NCBI GenBank assembly: GCA_022824225.1
Contig: JAJEAH010000035.1
Location: 1 to 44,404 of the forward strand
Length of the DNA: 44,404 bases
Source: Chloroflexota bacterium
Lineage (GTDB): Bacteria; Chloroflexota; UBA11872; VXOZ01
Direction: 5' to 3'
The notes below the pieces were generated by a model. The model ran no database searches, was not told the origin of the DNA, and saw nothing but the letters and a program-made list of their open reading frames with translations. Shown piece by piece: positions 35,334 to 44,147 of the stretch. Both the position numbers and the translations under genes were made by a program. Position 1 is the first letter of the stretch; each line of letters begins with the position of its first letter.

Positions 35334-35636
35334 CCCGAAAGCGCTACGAGTGGGCGCACGTAGAGTGCGAGCGCTCGTGAAATGCGGACCCGGCCTGTAG
35401 TCCCGCCGCCTGCCGCGAGCACGCGTTGCGTACGCACAGTGCTGGACAAGCCGCACGATTGCGTGCACCATACTACTGACGAATTCGCGCGGGCTCACGA
35501 CGAGCGGCGCTGCCCGCATATAGAATTGGTGAGTGTCGAAGCGGCTGCGCGGTACGCAGTTGCATTCTCACGCCCGACAGTCTCACAATGCGGCCGGCGC
35601 GCCTTGGCAAGTCGCAACAGGGGAGGTTCAAGCACC
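35334..35636. other. Intergenic stretch, 303 bp
   Basis: Follows ndk. The sulfatase-like frame is open through most of it, but the 85 residues it would add match no part of the family, and the best start (GTG 35637 with GGGGAGG upstream) lies at its end. Only a short GCGAGCGCTCG palindrome is visible. Confidence 0.5.
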
Positions 35637-37049
35637 GTGAAAGACACGCGACCGAACATCATTCTCTATACCACCGACCAGCACAGGGGCGACCATCTCA
35701 GTATCGCCGGGCACCCGGTTATTGAAACGCCCAACATTGACGCGTTCGTCGAGCACGGGGCGTACTTCCCCAACGCCTATACGGAAATACCGTCCACCAC
35801 CGGCGCGCGGCGTTGCCTGCACGGCGGCCAGGCCAGCTATGACTGCGGCCTCATCGGGTACGCCGCCACGGAGTGGCATGAGGCGAACACCTTGGCGGCG
35901 GTGCTTGCCGACGCCGGCTACCACTGCATCAACGTGGGCTGGCGCAACATGCACCCGCGCCGCAAGCTCTACGGCTTCCATACGGTCATCCCCCACGAAA
36001 TCCGGGAGGGCGACGACGACTATTGGGAGTGGCTGCGCCAAGAGCTAGGCCCCTACGCCCACGAGCGCATCGCCGGTTCCGACGCCAACGGCTGGCTGGC
36101 GCGCCCCTGGGCCTATGACGAGCGCTACCACTGCACGAATTGGACCGTAGACGTCACCATGGAACAGATCAAGAAGCGCGACCCCACCCGGCCCGTCTTT
36201 GTCTGGTGCTCGCACCTGCGTCCCCACTCGCCCTATGACCCGCCGCAGTTCTTCTGGGATATGTACATCAACCGGGAACTGCCGGAGATTCCCGTGGGGG
36301 ATTGGGCCGAGCGGTACAACGTGCCGCAGCCCGGCCTCCCGCGCCAGGCCTGGCACGGGCGTTTGACCGACGAGCAATTGCAGCGCATGCGGGCCGGGTA
36401 CATGGGCTGCATCACCCACATCGACTATCAGCTTGGCTATCTGCTTGAACTGGTGCAAGGGGCGTTGGACCGCAACCTCATGCTCGTCATGACGGCCGAT
36501 CACGGCGACATGATGGGTGACCACAACCTGCTGCGGAAGACCTACGCCTACGAGGGTTCAGCGCGCATTCCGTTCCTGGTCAGGTACCCGAACAGCCTCG
36601 ACGCGCCCACCGGCACGTTCGAGCACCCGGTCGGTCTGCAAGACGTCATGCCGACGATTCTCGAAGCGACCGGCACGCCTATTCCGGATTCCGTTACCGG
36701 CACGAGCGTCCTGAAGGCCGCACGCGGCGAACCGTGGCGCGAGTATATCCACGGTGAGCACTCCCCCACCTACAGCGCGGACAACGCGGTGCAGTACCTC
36801 ACTGACGGCAAGGAAAAGTACCTCTGGTACCCGGTGCGCGGCGAAGAACAGTTCTTCGATCTCGCCAACGACCGCCAGGAGCTCCACGACCGAGCAAACG
36901 ATCCAGCGTATGCCGACCGCGTATCACTCTGGCGCAACCGACTCATCGAGCACTTGGGCCAGCGCGGTGACGGCTTCTCGGATGGCGAGCAGTTGCTCGT
37001 GCGTCCCGAAGGGTACGGGCCGGAGGCAGTGCCGCCTCAGGCAAGCTAG
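35637..37049 (+). CDS. Sulfatase-superfamily hydrolase with Thr at the nucleophile position
   Basis: A 470-aa alkaline-phosphatase-superfamily hydrolase. N-terminal NIILYTTDQHRGDHLSIAGH supplies metal-binding Asp; MTADHGDMMGDHNLLRKTYAYEG supplies the distal Asp-His and Lys, all as in choline-sulfatase-like enzymes. The activation motif expected as C-x-P-x-R or S-x-P-x-R reads T-T-G-A-R (IPSTTGARRCLHGG), so Cys/Ser is Thr and Pro is Gly. Formylglycine cannot form there, and Thr nucleophiles are typical of phosphodiesterases and NPPs in this superfamily. It may therefore hydrolyse a phosphoester or phosphonate instead of a sulfate. No signal peptide, so probably cytoplasmic. GTG 35637 is supported by GGGGAGG. 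Confidence 0.83.
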   Translation: MKDTRPNIILYTTDQHRGDHLSIAGHPVIETPNIDAFVEHGAYFPNAYTEIPSTTGARRCLHGGQASYDCGLIGYAATEWHEANTLAAVLADAGYHCINVGWRNMHPRRKLYGFHTVIPHEIREGDDDYWEWLRQELGPYAHERIAGSDANGWLARPWAYDERYHCTNWTVDVTMEQIKKRDPTRPVFVWCSHLRPHSPYDPPQFFWDMYINRELPEIPVGDWAERYNVPQPGLPRQAWHGRLTDEQLQRMRAGYMGCITHIDYQLGYLLELVQGALDRNLMLVMTADHGDMMGDHNLLRKTYAYEGSARIPFLVRYPNSLDAPTGTFEHPVGLQDVMPTILEATGTPIPDSVTGTSVLKAARGEPWREYIHGEHSPTYSADNAVQYLTDGKEKYLWYPVRGEEQFFDLANDRQELHDRANDPAYADRVSLWRNRLIEHLGQRGDGFSDGEQLLVRPEGYGPEAVPPQAS

Positions 37050-37187: not shown

Positions 37188-38963
37188 TTGGCCGAGACCG
37201 AGTCTCTCGATCCCATCACCTTCGAAGTCGTGCGCCATGCCCTCACGGAGGCCACCGAGGAAATGGCGGTCGCGCTGCGGCGCAGCGCGTACTCGACCAA
37301 CATCAAGACCCGCGCCGACTTTTCCTGCGCTTTCTTCGACCGCGACCTCAACGTCGTGGCCCAGGCGTTCTGCCAGGCCGTGCATCTGGGCTCTTTGGTG
37401 CACCTGGTGCCAATCGCCGTGCGCGCGTACGGGGCGGAGAACCTCGCGCCCGGCGACGCCATTCTCTGCAACGATCCCTATCTCGGCGGCGTGCACCTGA
37501 ACGACATCAGCCTGATTTCGCCGGTCTACTGTGAAGGCGAACTCTTTGGCTACGTCGCCAACATGGCGCATCACGTGGATGTCGGCGGCGGCGCGCCGGC
37601 CAGCGTCGGCGCGTTTCGCGAGGTCTACCAGGAAGGCATCATCATTCCACCGGTCAAGCTGGTGGCAGGCGGCGAGATTGTCGAGGACGTATTCCGCCTC
37701 ATCCTGGGTCAGATCCGCTCGAAGCGGGAAACAGCCGGCGACTTTCGCGCCCAGATGGCTGCCAACGCGACCGGCGCGCGCCGTCTGGCCGAGCTTATGC
37801 AGCAGACCGGCATCGAAACGGTCAATCACTACATCAAGGAACTGATGGCCTACGCCGAGCGGCGCACCCGTGCCGAGATTGCCAAGCTGCCCCAGGGAGA
37901 GTTCAGCGCGGAAGGCTACGTGGACAACGACGGCTACACCGACGAGCCGGTTCGTCTCGTAGCCAAGGTCCGCATTGACGATGACGGCGTACTCTTCGAT
38001 CTCAACGGCAGCGACCCGCAACGCCGCGCGCCGGTGAACTCCACGTTCGCTCAGACCTTCTCCGCTTGCGCCTACAATCTCAAGTGCCTGATGGATCCGG
38101 ATATCCCGCCCAATCAGGGATTCTACCAGATGGTGCGCATCGCTGCGCCGGAAGGCACGGTGGTCAACTGCAAGCCGCCTGCGCCCGTGGTGGGTGGCTG
38201 GGAAACTCACGCGCGCCTCAATGAGGTGATCTTCAAAGCGTTGGCGCCCGTGCTGCCGGAGTGCGTGCCCGCGGGCGGCAAGGCGATGCAGTGCCACGCC
38301 GGGTTCGGCGGCATCGATCCACGCACCGGCGAGTATTACTGCTTCTTGGAAACGCTCGCAGGCGGGTACGGCGCGAGATTCCAGAGCGACGGCCCGGACG
38401 CCGTGCAAACCCACGGCCAAAACACCGAGAACGCCCCTATCGAAGAGACCGAACGCTATTACCCGGTGCGAATCTTGCGCTATGAGTTGGTAGACGACTC
38501 AGAAGGCCCCGGCAAGTATCGTGGCGGACTGGGACTGCGCCGTGACTACGTTTTCCTCGACCACGACGTCACCTTCACCGTATTGGCGGACAGAGATAAG
38601 GCCGGTCCCTGGGGGCTCTTTGGCGGTGAACCCGGCCGCCAGGCCTACTACATCCACGATCACGACGGTGAGGCGGAGGTCTTAAGCTCCAAGACCACGA
38701 TCGACGTGCGCCCCGGCGAGATGATTCGCTACGAGACGTGCGGCGGCGGCGGCCACGGTCCGCCTTGGCAGCGGGACCCCAAGCGCGTACTTAACGACGT
38801 GCGCCAAGGGAAAGTGAGCCTGGAGCGCGCGCGCACTGCCTACGGGGTGGCAATTGACGCTGAGCAATGGACGGTCGACACCGACGAAACTGCATACCTG
38901 CGCGCGACAATGCAGCACGACGGCCCTCACGACGAGGCTAGTAAGACGGGAGCCGCGCAGTGA
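37188..38963 (+). CDS. hyuB: Hydantoinase B / oxoprolinase-family subunit
   Basis: A 591-aa subunit of an ATP-dependent hydantoinase/oxoprolinase or acetone-carboxylase-like complex; acts with the HyuA protein encoded next. Family marks: DPITFEVVRHALTEATEEM, ILCNDPYLGGVHLNDISLI, MAHHVDVGGGAPAS, YQEGIIIPPVKL, FRAQMAANATGARRLAELM and the C-terminal GPGKYRGGLGLRRDY and CGGGGHGPPWQRDP. TTG 37188 is about 10 bases past GGGGAGGGG; the call of a TTG start rests on that. Its last 4 bases overlap hyuA (GTGA). Substrate unknown. Confidence 0.92.
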   Translation: MAETESLDPITFEVVRHALTEATEEMAVALRRSAYSTNIKTRADFSCAFFDRDLNVVAQAFCQAVHLGSLVHLVPIAVRAYGAENLAPGDAILCNDPYLGGVHLNDISLISPVYCEGELFGYVANMAHHVDVGGGAPASVGAFREVYQEGIIIPPVKLVAGGEIVEDVFRLILGQIRSKRETAGDFRAQMAANATGARRLAELMQQTGIETVNHYIKELMAYAERRTRAEIAKLPQGEFSAEGYVDNDGYTDEPVRLVAKVRIDDDGVLFDLNGSDPQRRAPVNSTFAQTFSACAYNLKCLMDPDIPPNQGFYQMVRIAAPEGTVVNCKPPAPVVGGWETHARLNEVIFKALAPVLPECVPAGGKAMQCHAGFGGIDPRTGEYYCFLETLAGGYGARFQSDGPDAVQTHGQNTENAPIEETERYYPVRILRYELVDDSEGPGKYRGGLGLRRDYVFLDHDVTFTVLADRDKAGPWGLFGGEPGRQAYYIHDHDGEAEVLSSKTTIDVRPGEMIRYETCGGGGHGPPWQRDPKRVLNDVRQGKVSLERARTAYGVAIDAEQWTVDTDETAYLRATMQHDGPHDEASKTGAAQ

Positions 38964-41074
38964 GCGAAGCGCGCTTTCGGCTGGGTGTGGACATAGGCGG
39001 CACATTTACCGATGCTACGTTAGTCGATGAGAGCACGGGCCACCTATGGAATGCCAAAGTTTCCTCCACACCGGGCGATCCCTCGCAGGGCTTTCTTACG
39101 GTCACGCAACATATCCTCGACCGCGCCGCGTTGGCTCCGGGGACTCTGCGCTATGTCGTTCACGCCACCACGGTAGCGACAAACGCCATTATCGAAGGCA
39201 GGGTCGCGCCCACCGCGCTCATCACAACAGAGGGCTTTCGCGACATCTTGGAGATCGCCCGGCAGATTCGCCCTTCGCTCTACGACACGCAATTTGAAAA
39301 ACCCACACCCCTCGTGCCGCGCGATCGCTGTTTCGGCGTGCGCGAACGTTTGGACGCCGCCGGCGCGGTGGTTGCGCCGTTGGACGAGTCCGCGATTCCG
39401 CGCATCGCCAATGTCATCCAGGCAGCGGAGATAGAATCTGTTGCCGTCTGCTTCCTGCATTCGTATCTCAATGCGCAGCACGAGCAGCGAGCGGGCGAGA
39501 TTCTGCAGGCGCACGCGCCGGACGTTGCCATTTCCCTGTCGTCAGACGTAGCGCCGGAGATCCGCGAGTACTTTCGTGCCAGCACGACGGTCATCAATGC
39601 CGCGCTGCGACCCATCGTCTCGCGGTATCTGGAGAAAATTGAAGCGCGACTTCGCGCCCAAGGCATAGTTTCGGAGTTGCTGGTCATGCAAAGCAGCGGC
39701 GGGCTTATGACGTTTGCCGACGCGCGTAGCAGGCCGGTCTTCATGGTGGAATCCGGCCCGGCTGCCGGTGTTATCACGGCGGCGCACTTGGCAAAAGCGC
39801 TGGGTAAGCGCAACGTCATTTCATTCGACATGGGCGGCACGACCGCCAAAGTGGGGCTCGTGCAAGACGGTGCCCCGCGCATAACCAAAGACTATGAAGT
39901 TGGCTCAGTCGCCCAGCCTGGCAGCGGCGGCTTTCGGGCAGGCGGCTATCCCATTCGGACGCCCGTTATCGACCTGGTAGAAATCGGCGCCGGCGGCGGC
40001 TCGATTGCTTGGGTAGATCCCGGTGGCGTCCTGCGCGTGGGGCCTCAGAGCGCTGGGGCCGATCCCGGGCCGGCCTGCTACGGTAAAGGCGGCTCAGAGC
40101 CAACGGTAACCGACGCAAATCTCGTCTTGGGCCGCCTTAATCCAGGTCACCTGCTCGGGGGAGACCTCAAGCTGGATGGCGCGCTCGCGCATGCGGCAAT
40201 TGAGGAACGCATCGCCAAGCCGCTGGGGTTAGATGTGGTCAGGGCCGCACATAGCATTGTGGAAATCGCCAACGTGGCCATGATCAACGCGCTGCGCCTC
40301 GTGTCGGTACAGCGCGGGCACGATCCCCGCGACTTCGCGCTGACCGCCTTTGGCGGCGCCGGGCCGCTGCACGCCAACCGCTTAGCGCACGAGATGAATA
40401 TCCCCGTCACTATCATCCCAACCAGCCCGGGCACGGCCTCGGCGCTGGGTCTCCTGGTCACCGACATTACCTATGATTACGCCACTACACTCATCGAACG
40501 CGTCGATCGCCTTGAGCCGGGAGTGGTAGCGGATGTCTTTGCGGACCTCAGACTGCAAGGTACCGCAGCGCTTGCAGCAGCGGGCGTCGCCGCAGTCGAC
40601 ATGGCCTATGTCCAGCAGGTCGACTTGCGCTACGTCGGGCAGAGCTACGAGCTCACGTTGCCATACCCCCATGGCGAGACCACCGGCAGTGACTTTAGTG
40701 GCCTATTGCAGGAGTTTCATGATGAACACAATCGCGTGTACGGCCATAGCGTGCCCGGCGAGCCGGTCGAGACCGTAAACTTGCGGCTCACAGCGCTTGG
40801 CACCATCGTCAAGCCGCCATTGCTGGCAAAGAGCGGCGCCGCGCGCGGCCTTCAAGAGGCCCAATATGGCGCGAGACCGGTCTACTTTGGCGAAGCGGAC
40901 GCCTTCGTAGATTCCCCGATCTACGATCGCAACTTGCTCACCGCCGGGACGGAGGTGCCCGGTCCTGCGATTGTCGAGGAATACGATTCTACTACGGTTA
41001 TTCACCCAGGATACTACGCAGCGGTCGATCAATACGGTACACTTCTACTATCTAAGCAACCTAGTCATCCCTGA
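38960..41074 (+). CDS. hyuA: Hydantoinase A / oxoprolinase-family ATPase subunit
   Basis: A 704-aa actin-fold ATPase subunit partnering HyuB. The N-terminus LGVDIGGTFTDATLVDESTG is the phosphate loop; further marks are HATTVATNAIIEGRVAPTAL, ITTEGFRDILEIARQIRPSL, QSSGGLMTFADARSRPVFMV, ESGPAAGVITAAHLAKALG, SFDMGGTTAKVGLV, EIGAGGGSIAWVDPGGVLRV, GPQSAGADPGPACYG and FGGAGPLHANRLAHEM. It overlaps hyuB by 4 bases. The pair may open a cyclic amide such as hydantoin or 5-oxoproline, or carboxylate a ketone; neighbours do not decide which. Confidence 0.94.
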   Translation: MSEARFRLGVDIGGTFTDATLVDESTGHLWNAKVSSTPGDPSQGFLTVTQHILDRAALAPGTLRYVVHATTVATNAIIEGRVAPTALITTEGFRDILEIARQIRPSLYDTQFEKPTPLVPRDRCFGVRERLDAAGAVVAPLDESAIPRIANVIQAAEIESVAVCFLHSYLNAQHEQRAGEILQAHAPDVAISLSSDVAPEIREYFRASTTVINAALRPIVSRYLEKIEARLRAQGIVSELLVMQSSGGLMTFADARSRPVFMVESGPAAGVITAAHLAKALGKRNVISFDMGGTTAKVGLVQDGAPRITKDYEVGSVAQPGSGGFRAGGYPIRTPVIDLVEIGAGGGSIAWVDPGGVLRVGPQSAGADPGPACYGKGGSEPTVTDANLVLGRLNPGHLLGGDLKLDGALAHAAIEERIAKPLGLDVVRAAHSIVEIANVAMINALRLVSVQRGHDPRDFALTAFGGAGPLHANRLAHEMNIPVTIIPTSPGTASALGLLVTDITYDYATTLIERVDRLEPGVVADVFADLRLQGTAALAAAGVAAVDMAYVQQVDLRYVGQSYELTLPYPHGETTGSDFSGLLQEFHDEHNRVYGHSVPGEPVETVNLRLTALGTIVKPPLLAKSGAARGLQEAQYGARPVYFGEADAFVDSPIYDRNLLTAGTEVPGPAIVEEYDSTTVIHPGYYAAVDQYGTLLLSKQPSHP

Positions 41075-41093
41075 AGCGGAGGAACACTAAGGG

Positions 41094-41315
41094 ATGGCGA
41101 TACAAGGCATCCATAGGGCATTCGAGCATCTTATCGCCGCAGGGCTCAGCAAGGAGAAGGCGGAAGCCTTGCTGGATTCTCTCGCAGACTCGCGCGACGC
41201 CCTGGCGACCAAAGCCGACCTGCGCGAACTGGAATTGCGCATGACCATAGAACGCGGCGCGACGTTTTATGCGCTGGCGGGTTTGCTCATTGCGATGCAG
41301 TACTTCTTACCCTAA
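41094..41315 (+). CDS. Small DUF1640/CCDC90-like coiled-coil membrane protein
   Basis: A 73-aa protein. HRAFEHLIAAGLSKEKAEAL followed by LATKADLRELELRMTIE is the head and coiled-coil start typical of bacterial DUF1640 proteins. The last 17 residues (FYALAGLLIAMQYFLP) form a membrane helix. It is far shorter than usual family members. AGCGGAGGA stands about 8 bases before the ATG at 41094, and it lies 19 bases after hyuA, so it is probably co-transcribed. Function unknown. Confidence 0.65.
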   Translation: MAIQGIHRAFEHLIAAGLSKEKAEALLDSLADSRDALATKADLRELELRMTIERGATFYALAGLLIAMQYFLP

Positions 41316-41402
41316 GCCAAGAGCAGAGCCGAATGGCTGAAACTACCGCCACTCTGTCGTGCCCAGCAGTATTCAGTCTTACCGAGCGAAGCAGGGAATC
41401 TC

Positions 41403-42581
41403 ATGGCCGAAACCGCTGACGTTGTCGTCATTGGCGGCGGCAGTACCGGCACGAGCATTGCCTGGCAACTGGCAAACATGGGAGCCGGCAAGGTCGTCTT
41501 GGTCGAACGGCGGGGTCTCGCCGCCCAGGCCACCGGCGTCACCGCCGGCATCGTGCGTACGCACTACACGCATGAAACGCTGGCGCGCATGGCCCTGCGC
41601 GCACGGCAGATCTTTGAGAACTTCGACGATGAGGTGGGCGGTGACGCCGGTTTTCGCCAGACCGGCTTCCTGGCCCTGCTGGGGCCGAACGATGTCGATA
41701 CGGTTGCCGCCAACGTGACTATGCACCGCAGCCTTGGCATAGACACCTTCATACTTTCGCCTGACGAGATCCGCGAAATAGAGCCGCGTTTGGCCTTGTT
41801 CGACATTGGCGCCGCCGCTTGGGAACCGGAATCGGGCTACGCCGATCCGGTGCGCACCACGCTCAGCTTTGCCAACGCGGCGCGGCGGCACGGCGCAGAC
41901 CTGCGCATCGGCGTGGGCGCGGAGCGGTTGGTCGCTGACGAGAGCGGCATTACCGGAGTCGAGACAAACGTAGGGTCTCTTTCCACACGATCCGTCATCG
42001 TGGCTAACGGCTTCTCGTCCCGCGGTTTGGTGGCTCCCCTCGGCATCGAGCTGCCCCTCACGCCCATACGACATGCGGTGGCGTTCATGCAGCGCGCCGC
42101 GCACTTTGGCAAGTCTCATCCCATCATCTCGGATCGCGTTCTGGGCAGTTACTACCGGCCCCGCGAGGACGGCCACACCATGGTGGGCAAGACCGCGCCG
42201 CACGATGGAGATGAAGACCCGGACGCCGACGCCTGGCCCGCTCCCCGTCCGGAATTTCTCCAAACGGTAGCCGAGCGCTATCGACGGCGATTCCCAAACC
42301 AAGGCGCCCCCGTCGTAAACAGCGCTACGTCCGGCCTCTACGACTGTTCGCCGGACCTGCAACCGCTGCTCGGCGCGGTGCCGGACGTACCGGGTCTCCA
42401 CCTTGCCGCCGGTCTGAGCGGCCACGGCTTCAAGCTCAGCCCCGTATTCAGTCAGATGCTGGCAGAACAGTTGCTGACAGGCCATAGCACACAGTTTGAC
42501 ATTACGCTGTTTAGTCCGGCACGCTTTATCCAGGAACAGCGCATCGTGCCGCAACACGCTTACTCGGTTTCCACACTGTAG
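41403..42581 (+). CDS. FAD-dependent amine/amino-acid oxidase (DAO family)
   Basis: A 392-aa flavoprotein like sarcosine oxidase beta or glycine/D-amino-acid oxidases, oxidising a secondary amine and making peroxide or passing electrons on. The dinucleotide fold is VVVIGGGSTGTSIAWQLANM with VVLVERRGL; SGLYDCSPDLQPLLGAVPDV and AAGLSGHGFKLSPVFSQMLAE are the C-terminal FAD-contact motifs. The substrate cannot be told. It starts 87 bases after the small coiled-coil gene, in the same direction as the hydantoinase genes, fitting a pathway that first opens a cyclic amide and then oxidises the amine; that link is inference. Confidence 0.9.
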   Translation: MAETADVVVIGGGSTGTSIAWQLANMGAGKVVLVERRGLAAQATGVTAGIVRTHYTHETLARMALRARQIFENFDDEVGGDAGFRQTGFLALLGPNDVDTVAANVTMHRSLGIDTFILSPDEIREIEPRLALFDIGAAAWEPESGYADPVRTTLSFANAARRHGADLRIGVGAERLVADESGITGVETNVGSLSTRSVIVANGFSSRGLVAPLGIELPLTPIRHAVAFMQRAAHFGKSHPIISDRVLGSYYRPREDGHTMVGKTAPHDGDEDPDADAWPAPRPEFLQTVAERYRRRFPNQGAPVVNSATSGLYDCSPDLQPLLGAVPDVPGLHLAAGLSGHGFKLSPVFSQMLAEQLLTGHSTQFDITLFSPARFIQEQRIVPQHAYSVSTL

Positions 42582-42718
42582 ATAGCAACTTTGGGGTCGC
42601 GTGAAAGGGTCAGAGGATCACATTCCCAAACAGCGCATAGAGCGGGCAGAGCAGAGAGAGGAGGGCGATTGAGTGGTCAAGCCAGCGCCCGCGAGAGACC
42701 AAATGTGATGTAGTCTGA

Positions 42719-42744
42719 GTGTGTCAATCAGAGGATTGGCACAC
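42719..42744. promoter_or_regulatory. Inverted repeat before the ABC substrate-binding gene
   Basis: GTGTGTCAATC (42719-42729) and GATTGGCACAC (42734-42744) are complementary over 11 positions with one G-T pair and an AGAG spacer. It ends 29 bases before the ATG. It could be a repressor operator or a short 5'-UTR hairpin. Confidence 0.4.
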
Positions 42745-42773
42745 GTAGCGAAGACCACGGGAGGTCACAAGCA

Positions 42774-44147
42774 ATGTCTATGGGCAATGGGTTTACTACG
42801 CGACGGCGTTTCCTGGCCGCAGTTGCCGGTCTGACCGGCGCAGCGTTCGCCGCAGCCTGCGGCGCGGTACCGGTTGCGGACACCGAGGAAATGATGGAGG
42901 AGGAAGCGCCCACGGAAGCTGAAGCAGCGCCGGAGGCGGAAATCGTAGAAGTGGTGTGGGCCTGCTACGACCTGCAGGAGCACCGCAATGCCACGCTGCG
43001 TCAGATGGCGGAAGTCTGCAACAACACCTTGGAAAACCGAGTCACGAAACTCGAGATCGTCACCGAGAACTTCTTGGAAAAGATTCGCACCGAGTTTGTC
43101 GCCGGCACAACGACCTACGACATTGTCGTGAACCAGATCAACTGGGTGCAGGCCGGCGCGCGTACGGGCATGTTCTTGCCCATCAGCGACTACATGAAGC
43201 GCGACGGCGTATCGCGCGATGACTACCTTGACTCCTCTTCCTGGGAAGTCAATGGCATCATGTACGGCCTGGCCTTCCTCGGCGGCGGCGACGCCATCTA
43301 CTACAACAAGGACCTCTTCGACAACGACGGCGTCCCGTATCCCGAGTTGGGCACAACCTACGAGCAACTGCTCGATGGCGCTGCCAAGATGACGAAGCGC
43401 ACCGGCGATGAGACCACCCAATGGGGCTATAACTTCGGGTACTCCTCGCTGGAGGTCAACCTGGGCAGTTTCATCCTCGATTCCGGCGGACAAGTGCTCA
43501 ACGAGGCGCGTGACATGGCCCTCTACGGTGAGGACCAAAACTCTATCGCGGGCGCCCAGTTCTACGTGGACATGATTCTCAAGCACCGGGTGGTGCCGTG
43601 GGGTGAAGAACGGCAGGCCCTGCGCGAAGAGGGCGGCAGCGGCCGCCACATCGGCACCGGCAAGGTCGCCATGTCGCAGATTACGTTGATCCCGCTCAAG
43701 GGCGCATACGAGGTGCTCGGCGACCGCCTGGGCATCGCGCCGCTCGCCACCGGGCCGGCAGGCACCCGCAGCCCGGCCACCGGCAGCAACGCCTGGAGCA
43801 TCATGTCGCTCACCGAAGTGCCCGACGCGGCCTGGGACGTGTTCTACGTCCTTTCTCAGAAGGAGGCGCAGGACCTTTACGCCGTGCACGCCCACCCCGG
43901 ACTCTTTGCCTCAGCCGACGTGTTCTTGGGCAACTACCCGGGTATGGACTGGCCCACCGTCCTCGACCATTGGCGGGACGGCGGACGCGACTTCTTCCTG
44001 ACGCCGGAGACCGGCGAGTTCTGGACGACCGCCAACCAGCATCTCCAACCGATGTACACCGGCGAATCTACCGTCCAAGAGGCGATGAAGACCTCCGCCG
44101 ACGCTGTGAATGAGCTCTTCGCACAGCGCCCGGACGACTGGAAGTAG
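42774..44147 (+). CDS. ABC transporter substrate-binding lipoprotein (family 1, sugar type)
   Basis: Extracellular solute-binding protein of 457 aa. The N-terminus combines a twin-arginine motif (TTRRRFLAAVAGL) with a lipobox ending at C29 (AFAAACGA), so it is probably Tat-exported and lipidated. An acidic linker (EEMMEEEAPTEAEAAPEAE) follows, then the two-lobe binding fold: EFVAGTTTYDIVVNQINWVQ, GMFLPISDYM, WEVNGIMYGLAFLGGGDAI, YYNKDLFDNDGVPYPELGTT, and AWSIMSLTEVPDAAWDVFYV near the end. The ligand is probably a sugar or polyol. No permease or ATPase gene follows: a strong hairpin and a repeat close the unit, so its transporter must be elsewhere. Confidence 0.9.
   Translation: MSMGNGFTTRRRFLAAVAGLTGAAFAAACGAVPVADTEEMMEEEAPTEAEAAPEAEIVEVVWACYDLQEHRNATLRQMAEVCNNTLENRVTKLEIVTENFLEKIRTEFVAGTTTYDIVVNQINWVQAGARTGMFLPISDYMKRDGVSRDDYLDSSSWEVNGIMYGLAFLGGGDAIYYNKDLFDNDGVPYPELGTTYEQLLDGAAKMTKRTGDETTQWGYNFGYSSLEVNLGSFILDSGGQVLNEARDMALYGEDQNSIAGAQFYVDMILKHRVVPWGEERQALREEGGSGRHIGTGKVAMSQITLIPLKGAYEVLGDRLGIAPLATGPAGTRSPATGSNAWSIMSLTEVPDAAWDVFYVLSQKEAQDLYAVHAHPGLFASADVFLGNYPGMDWPTVLDHWRDGGRDFFLTPETGEFWTTANQHLQPMYTGESTVQEAMKTSADAVNELFAQRPDDWK

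Follow-up and report, generated by a model that had tools for sequence, protein, structure and literature searches.

The stretch of Chloroflexota DNA analysed here (44,404 nucleotides, 'the window') carries, at 35637..37049 on the + strand, an open reading frame with a GTG start at 35637 and a stop at 37049 that encodes a 470-residue protein of the sulfatase fold; its frame, coordinates and nucleophile-site motif were all verified. A ribosome-binding site, GGGGAGG (35620..35626, +), can be read directly 10 nt 5' of the GTG, and the start residue is common to the orthologues. The protein matches the Pfam families Sulfatase (3.3e-32) and SGSH_C (2.2e-13), and its closest solved relatives are BT1918 (7OZ8, family S1_46) and EfAS (9KOQ). 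Strand 1 of the fold runs from residue 7, leaving no room for a signal peptide and no residues ahead of it for the helices of an N-terminal membrane domain; the protein is apparently a cytoplasmic enzyme that acts alone.

Genes for hydantoinase B and A, a DAO-family oxidase and a solute-binding protein lie 3' of this gene, in an order kept in the same-genus loci (in one, L057, an overlapping ORF was picked over the oxidase). An earlier, sequence-only reading of the window had remarked on the adjoining hydantoinase and oxidase genes. They are indeed there, but they have no bearing on function, being conserved within the genus only: among 17 loci outside the genus no partner gene is common to more than two, and the context therefore gives no substrate. 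Considered by itself, the block at 37188-44147 (hydantoinase B and A, FAD oxidase, lipoprotein-type solute-binding protein) is conserved across the genus; its hydantoinase B/A are nearest to the NCBIfam caprolactamase beta/alpha models, at scores under cut-off, and it is possibly a catabolic unit for lactam or N-methyl compounds.

At the nucleophile site the protein has T54-T-G-A-R58 (35796..35810, +) in place of C/S-x-P-x-R. The central observation of the sequence-only reading, Thr instead of the Cys that gives formylglycine (FGly), is thus correct: T54 falls on the nucleophile column in alignments to 9KOQ (...PSCVPAR...) and 7OZ8 (...PSSTPAR...), and the motif region is gap-free in both. The metal-binding segments are intact, as had also been claimed, with the metal-ligand Asp and its adjoining Gln at D14-Q15 (35676..35681, +; EfAS D20/Q21) and the ligands D288-H289 (36498..36503, +; EfAS D311/H312) within an unbroken DHG288-290 segment. 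The segments around the conserved leaving-group acid H197 (36225..36227, +; EfAS H220, SmCS H201) and the conserved K301 (36537..36539, +; EfAS K324, SmCS K309) are likewise preserved; H197, D288 and H289 recur in every compared row. A second substitution had been overlooked. The GKxH segment (GKMH in 7OZ8 and 9KOQ), whose Lys and His bind FGly and sulfate, reads G-W-R-N, with W102-R103-N104 (35940..35948, +) in place of K-x-H. In EfAS numbering, T54 is C61, R58 is R65, W102 is K110 and N104 is H112.

Both substitutions are fixed in a family of proteins. The suggested check of whether homologues share the Thr gave an unequivocal answer, since it is present in 20/20 core members (63-92% identical) and in 3/3 divergent ones (23/23). 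T54, T55, G56, R58, R103, N104, D14, Q15, H197, D288, H289 and K301 are invariant across the 20 core sequences, and position 102 is always aromatic (17 Trp, 3 Phe). By comparison, the 29 near Cys-type relatives have Cys at the nucleophile in all 29, Lys (26) or Arg (3) at position 102, and His (28) at position 104. Homologues with Cys or Ser, which the sequence-only reading had named as grounds for abandoning its idea, occur outside this branch and never inside it. The branch is also set apart by an identity gap, its members being at least ~56% identical to the window's protein while everything else found is at most ~47% identical, with Cys in the 29/29 compared. In some Cys-type relatives (L028, L005, L032 and others) the motif Pro is gone and the Cys kept, as C-x-G-x-R or C-x-A-x-R. 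Two further positions are invariant Cys specifically in the Thr family: C70 (35844..35846, +), which is His in most Cys-type relatives, and C97 (35925..35927, +), which is Thr in 27/29 of them; together they may form a second metal site or a structural site near the nucleophile. The same residue comparison of family against near relatives revealed no family-specific invariant Asp or His of the kind that would act as second-metal ligands.

Core members are on record from Chloroflexota, Armatimonadota/Zipacnadia, Lentisphaerota, Poribacteria and KSB1. Five species of the same genus have orthologues at 85-92% identity, and a scan of named genomes recovered orthologues at 66-75% identity in records labelled Chloroflexi, Armatimonadota, Zipacnadia, KSB1, Lentisphaeria and Poribacteria. 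Sampling by phylum found a family member in 12/201 genomes from the phylum of the Armatimonadota genome; the Chloroflexota sample confined the family to the window's genus, and for the other three phyla sampling yielded no genome with it beyond the starting one. Occurrences in one genome on short MAG contigs may reflect binning error; those on contigs of 416 kb (L062), 4.88 Mb (L093) and 1.29 Mb (G001) are secure. A scan of viral contigs contained no Thr-family member, and plasmid records contained no match to the window's protein at >=60% identity.

The three divergent members (L073, 1477-2937; L098, 1144-2898; L105, 1492-2946) retain T54, D14, N104, H197, D288, H289 and K301, but have lost R58 (to Gln or His) and, in two of them, Q15 (DT). 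L105 shares a genome with another locus, L091, 3.2 kb away. At a Zipacnadia locus (L065, 3864-5208) a frameshift falls immediately past T-T-G-A in a frame that is otherwise well preserved, so a misassembly or a recently formed pseudogene could account for it. The genome containing the window encodes one formylglycine-generating enzyme (FGE) and has 21 sulfatase-domain matches, of which ~15 are Cys-type; it includes Cys-type paralogues 40-47% identical to the Thr protein, the one at C30:145662-147062 at 47%. The presence of FGE rules out adaptation to its absence. Five of the 21 matches (L012, L016, L018, L019 and L021, on contigs C24, C57, C39, C57 and C22) form a second, distinct Thr group with T-[VI]-P-x-R and no GKxH Lys; the four that were scanned score far under the NCBI arylsulfatase cut-off.

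In a tree built with the active-site columns masked, the Thr family forms one clade (bootstrap/SH-aLRT 100/100, stem 0.57), and when BT1918 and EfAS are added it is still one clade, placed among Cys/Ser-type rows. This position among Cys-type rows, BT1918 and EfAS marks it, on the topology, as sharing descent with the S1 enzymes. The simplest account is thus that Thr arose from an FGly ancestor, a direction of change that is a strong inference with the root placed by more distant Cys-type rows. By alignment, C54T and the loss of K102/H104 are coupled changes in residues of common role. Across 15 pairs from six same-genus species dN/dS is 0.031-0.077; these values are approximate, several dS exceeding 1, and still far under neutrality. 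Because dN/dS within the genus is this low (0.03-0.08), the protein is evidently maintained. A pseudogene or sequencing error is out: dN/dS is low, and the same Thr recurs in 17 more distant genomes as well as in five species of the genus. The sequence-only reading had proposed a new branch that acts on phosphoesters; the separate branch stands, as one clade with Thr fixed, whereas action on phosphoesters, or catalysis of any kind, is putative. We found no earlier description of a Thr clade nested in the S1 sulfatases in the literature searched, most subscription papers lying outside that search.

The predicted structure (pLDDT 83.5, pTM 0.89) was obtained from an input alignment of 11 close homologues and nine distant sulfatases from viral contigs, the 11 homologues alone giving pLDDT 47.5. 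In the model the nucleophile helix begins at T54, and strand 96-101 stops just ahead of W102. Fold matches (Foldseek, VIA-align) place 7OZ8 (Z 49.1) and 9KOQ (Z 46.7) at the top; LtaS is absent from the best 50 fold matches listed, which is not evidence against a likeness to it.

That such proteins are labelled as sulfatases, as the sequence-only reading said, is borne out. NCBIfam NF010322/PRK13759, a curated model named 'arylsulfatase', gives the protein 481.5-481.7 bits, barely over its cut-off of 481, and is matched by all 11 aligned family members. An FGly sulfatase is what that name implies; the protein is unlikely to be one, and the score is a label rather than evidence of activity. The protein shares with FGly sulfatases (SulfAtlas S1) the sulfatase fold and the metal-binding Asp...Asp-His/Asn; a convertible Cys/Ser and the GKxH Lys and His are missing.

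Its relatives show what has changed. BT1918, a GlcNAc-3-O-sulfatase of S1_46 and the top match in both structure and sequence (37% identity), has S-T-P-A-R and GKMH where the window's protein has T-T-G-A-R and GWRN without a signal peptide; unlike the latter, it is a periplasmic exo-sulfatase of heparin fragments (PMC10154612). EfAS, the Mn2+-dependent S1 arylsulfatase of Enterococcus faecium (NF052527), is alike in fold over residues 4-464 (33% identity) and has in common the D/Q/D/H metal set, the H197/K301 pair and R58, but its C61, K110 and H112, all needed there, are T54, W102 and N104 here. The C61A and K110A mutants of EfAS are dead, and K110Y and H112A leave trace activity (PMC12421950); it is therefore improbable that the Thr family consists of ordinary FGly sulfatases. 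In SGSH the FGly hydroxyl is contacted by Arg74, Lys123 and His125, and in the phosphonate monoester hydrolase BcPMH the Lys/His pair is replaced by Tyr105/Thr107 (PMC4014121). Enzymes of this PMH/PehA type (2W8S, 2VQR) resemble the window's protein in their Asp...Asp-His metal set and in having an aromatic (Tyr105) and a polar (Thr107) residue for Lys/His, and they have a broad phospho-substrate range; yet they keep Cys57 as FGly and are ~25% identical to it. It does not have the PMH signature (Thr for Cys57, W/N for Y/T), scoring 144.7 bits on NF045661 against a cut-off of 900.

LtaS, EptA and NPP already exemplify separate branches of Thr-type enzymes with the sulfatase fold. Thr in PF00884 proteins is itself familiar, occurring in 30/59 Pfam seeds (PMC5066984), and LtaS provides the precedent, anticipated by the sequence-only reading, for a superfamily member with a Thr nucleophile: it uses one metal and Thr, passes through a covalent phospho-Thr intermediate and acts on phosphoesters (PMC4192460). 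LtaS, EptA/MCR and OpgB share with the window's protein a Thr at the nucleophile site and, as predicted here, one Mn2+; the Thr beside an Asp-His metal site that typifies LtaS/EptA is present here by sequence alone (T54, D288-H289), and profile alignment to LtaS-type proteins of the phylum puts T54 on their Thr. In LtaS, Trp360 and Arg362 bind phosphate. The likeness of the W-R-N loop to the LtaS W-N-R loop is no more than a lead, hhalign leaving a four-residue gap in aligning them. These proteins differ from ours in being membrane transferases, with ~20% identity and other loops, and the NCBIfam LtaS and MCR models match 2/11 and 1/11 family members weakly (best E-values 1.5e-07 and 7.2e-05).

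We think it somewhat probable, from residue patterns, that the protein is a former sulfatase that has given up FGly chemistry and uses a metal-activated Thr as LtaS does; its activity would probably be directed at phosphate (di)esters or be that of a transferase. D14, D288 and H289 would hold one divalent metal ion, probably Mn2+. T54, which opens the nucleophile helix and would lie beside this metal, would attack the phosphorus of its substrate, a phosphate ester that is probably of the diester or phosphonate type, and H197 and K301 would together give the leaving group its proton. From phospho-Thr, the intermediate, transfer would follow to an acceptor alcohol or to water, the route taken by LtaS. 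The Lys and His with which sulfatases hold FGly and help to expel sulfate would then have been dispensable, free to become Trp/Phe and Asn. In favour of this reading, L073, L098 and L105 keep the Thr even without R58, and the metal site and H/K pair are invariant; EfAS itself already hydrolyses phosphate and phosphonate esters (PMC12421950). This reading must be tempered by the retention in the core family of R58, which stabilises FGly, and by the EfAS changes in the same loop (K110A/Y, H112A), which also destroy its phosphatase and phosphonatase activities (PMC12421950). Hydrolytic turnover of phospho-Thr also lacks an explanation, since there is no sign of the second metal that activates water in alkaline phosphatase and NPP.

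The main rival, which we consider unlikely, is a pseudoenzyme whose fold and metal site bind a sulfated or phosphorylated ligand, in regulation or transport, without turnover and with Thr as a passive metal ligand. The joint loss of C, K and H, essential in their EfAS counterparts, would fit such a dead protein, as would a sub-branch that has drifted further (R58 gone, Q15 gone in two) and the lack of an operon partner to define a reaction; against it, the metal ligands, H197 and K301 are invariant even in that sub-branch, and the W/F, R and N replacements are fixed rather than drifting. Low dN/dS is compatible with an active enzyme and a pseudoenzyme alike. Less probable still is a Thr-dependent sulfatase or sulfotransferase, in which T54 would attack a sulfate ester and O-sulfothreonine would pass its sulfate to an acceptor or water. 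The nearest relatives are all sulfatases, and the Thr and Cys groups share many conserved C-terminal positions, so that a similar leaving-group pocket may exist; the sulfate-binding Lys, however, has become Trp, and with the geminal hydroxyl missing the sulfo-enzyme could not resolve by hemiacetal collapse; Cys-to-Ser and Cys-to-Ala mutants serve to trap sulfatase complexes. An ordinary FGly sulfatase with Thr or another residue modified in place of Cys is very improbable, even in a genome with one FGE and ~15 Cys-type sulfatases and a protein that keeps R58: oxidation would turn Thr into a ketone and not into FGly (PMC5066984), GKxH has lost its Lys and His, and the sole nearby Ser, S53, sits a residue away from the nucleophile column.

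Overall, the residues point to a real, conserved branch, probably with changed chemistry. It is quite possible, if a shade short of probable, that an S1-descended clade has abandoned FGly catalysis entirely and re-evolved an unmodified Thr nucleophile, together with a W-R-N loop that binds phosphate, in convergence on phosphotransfer of the LtaS type. The concrete annotation problem is that a curated model names such a protein arylsulfatase. For the superfamily, the finding is that FGly gave way to Thr within a clade of S1 sulfatases, accompanied by coordinated change of the residues that serve FGly, and it makes the evolution of nucleophile choice testable by three-residue swaps between real relatives. 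If the preferred reading is true, the path by which a sulfatase becomes a phosphodiesterase or phosphotransferase would be documented in one clade with living Cys-type sisters.
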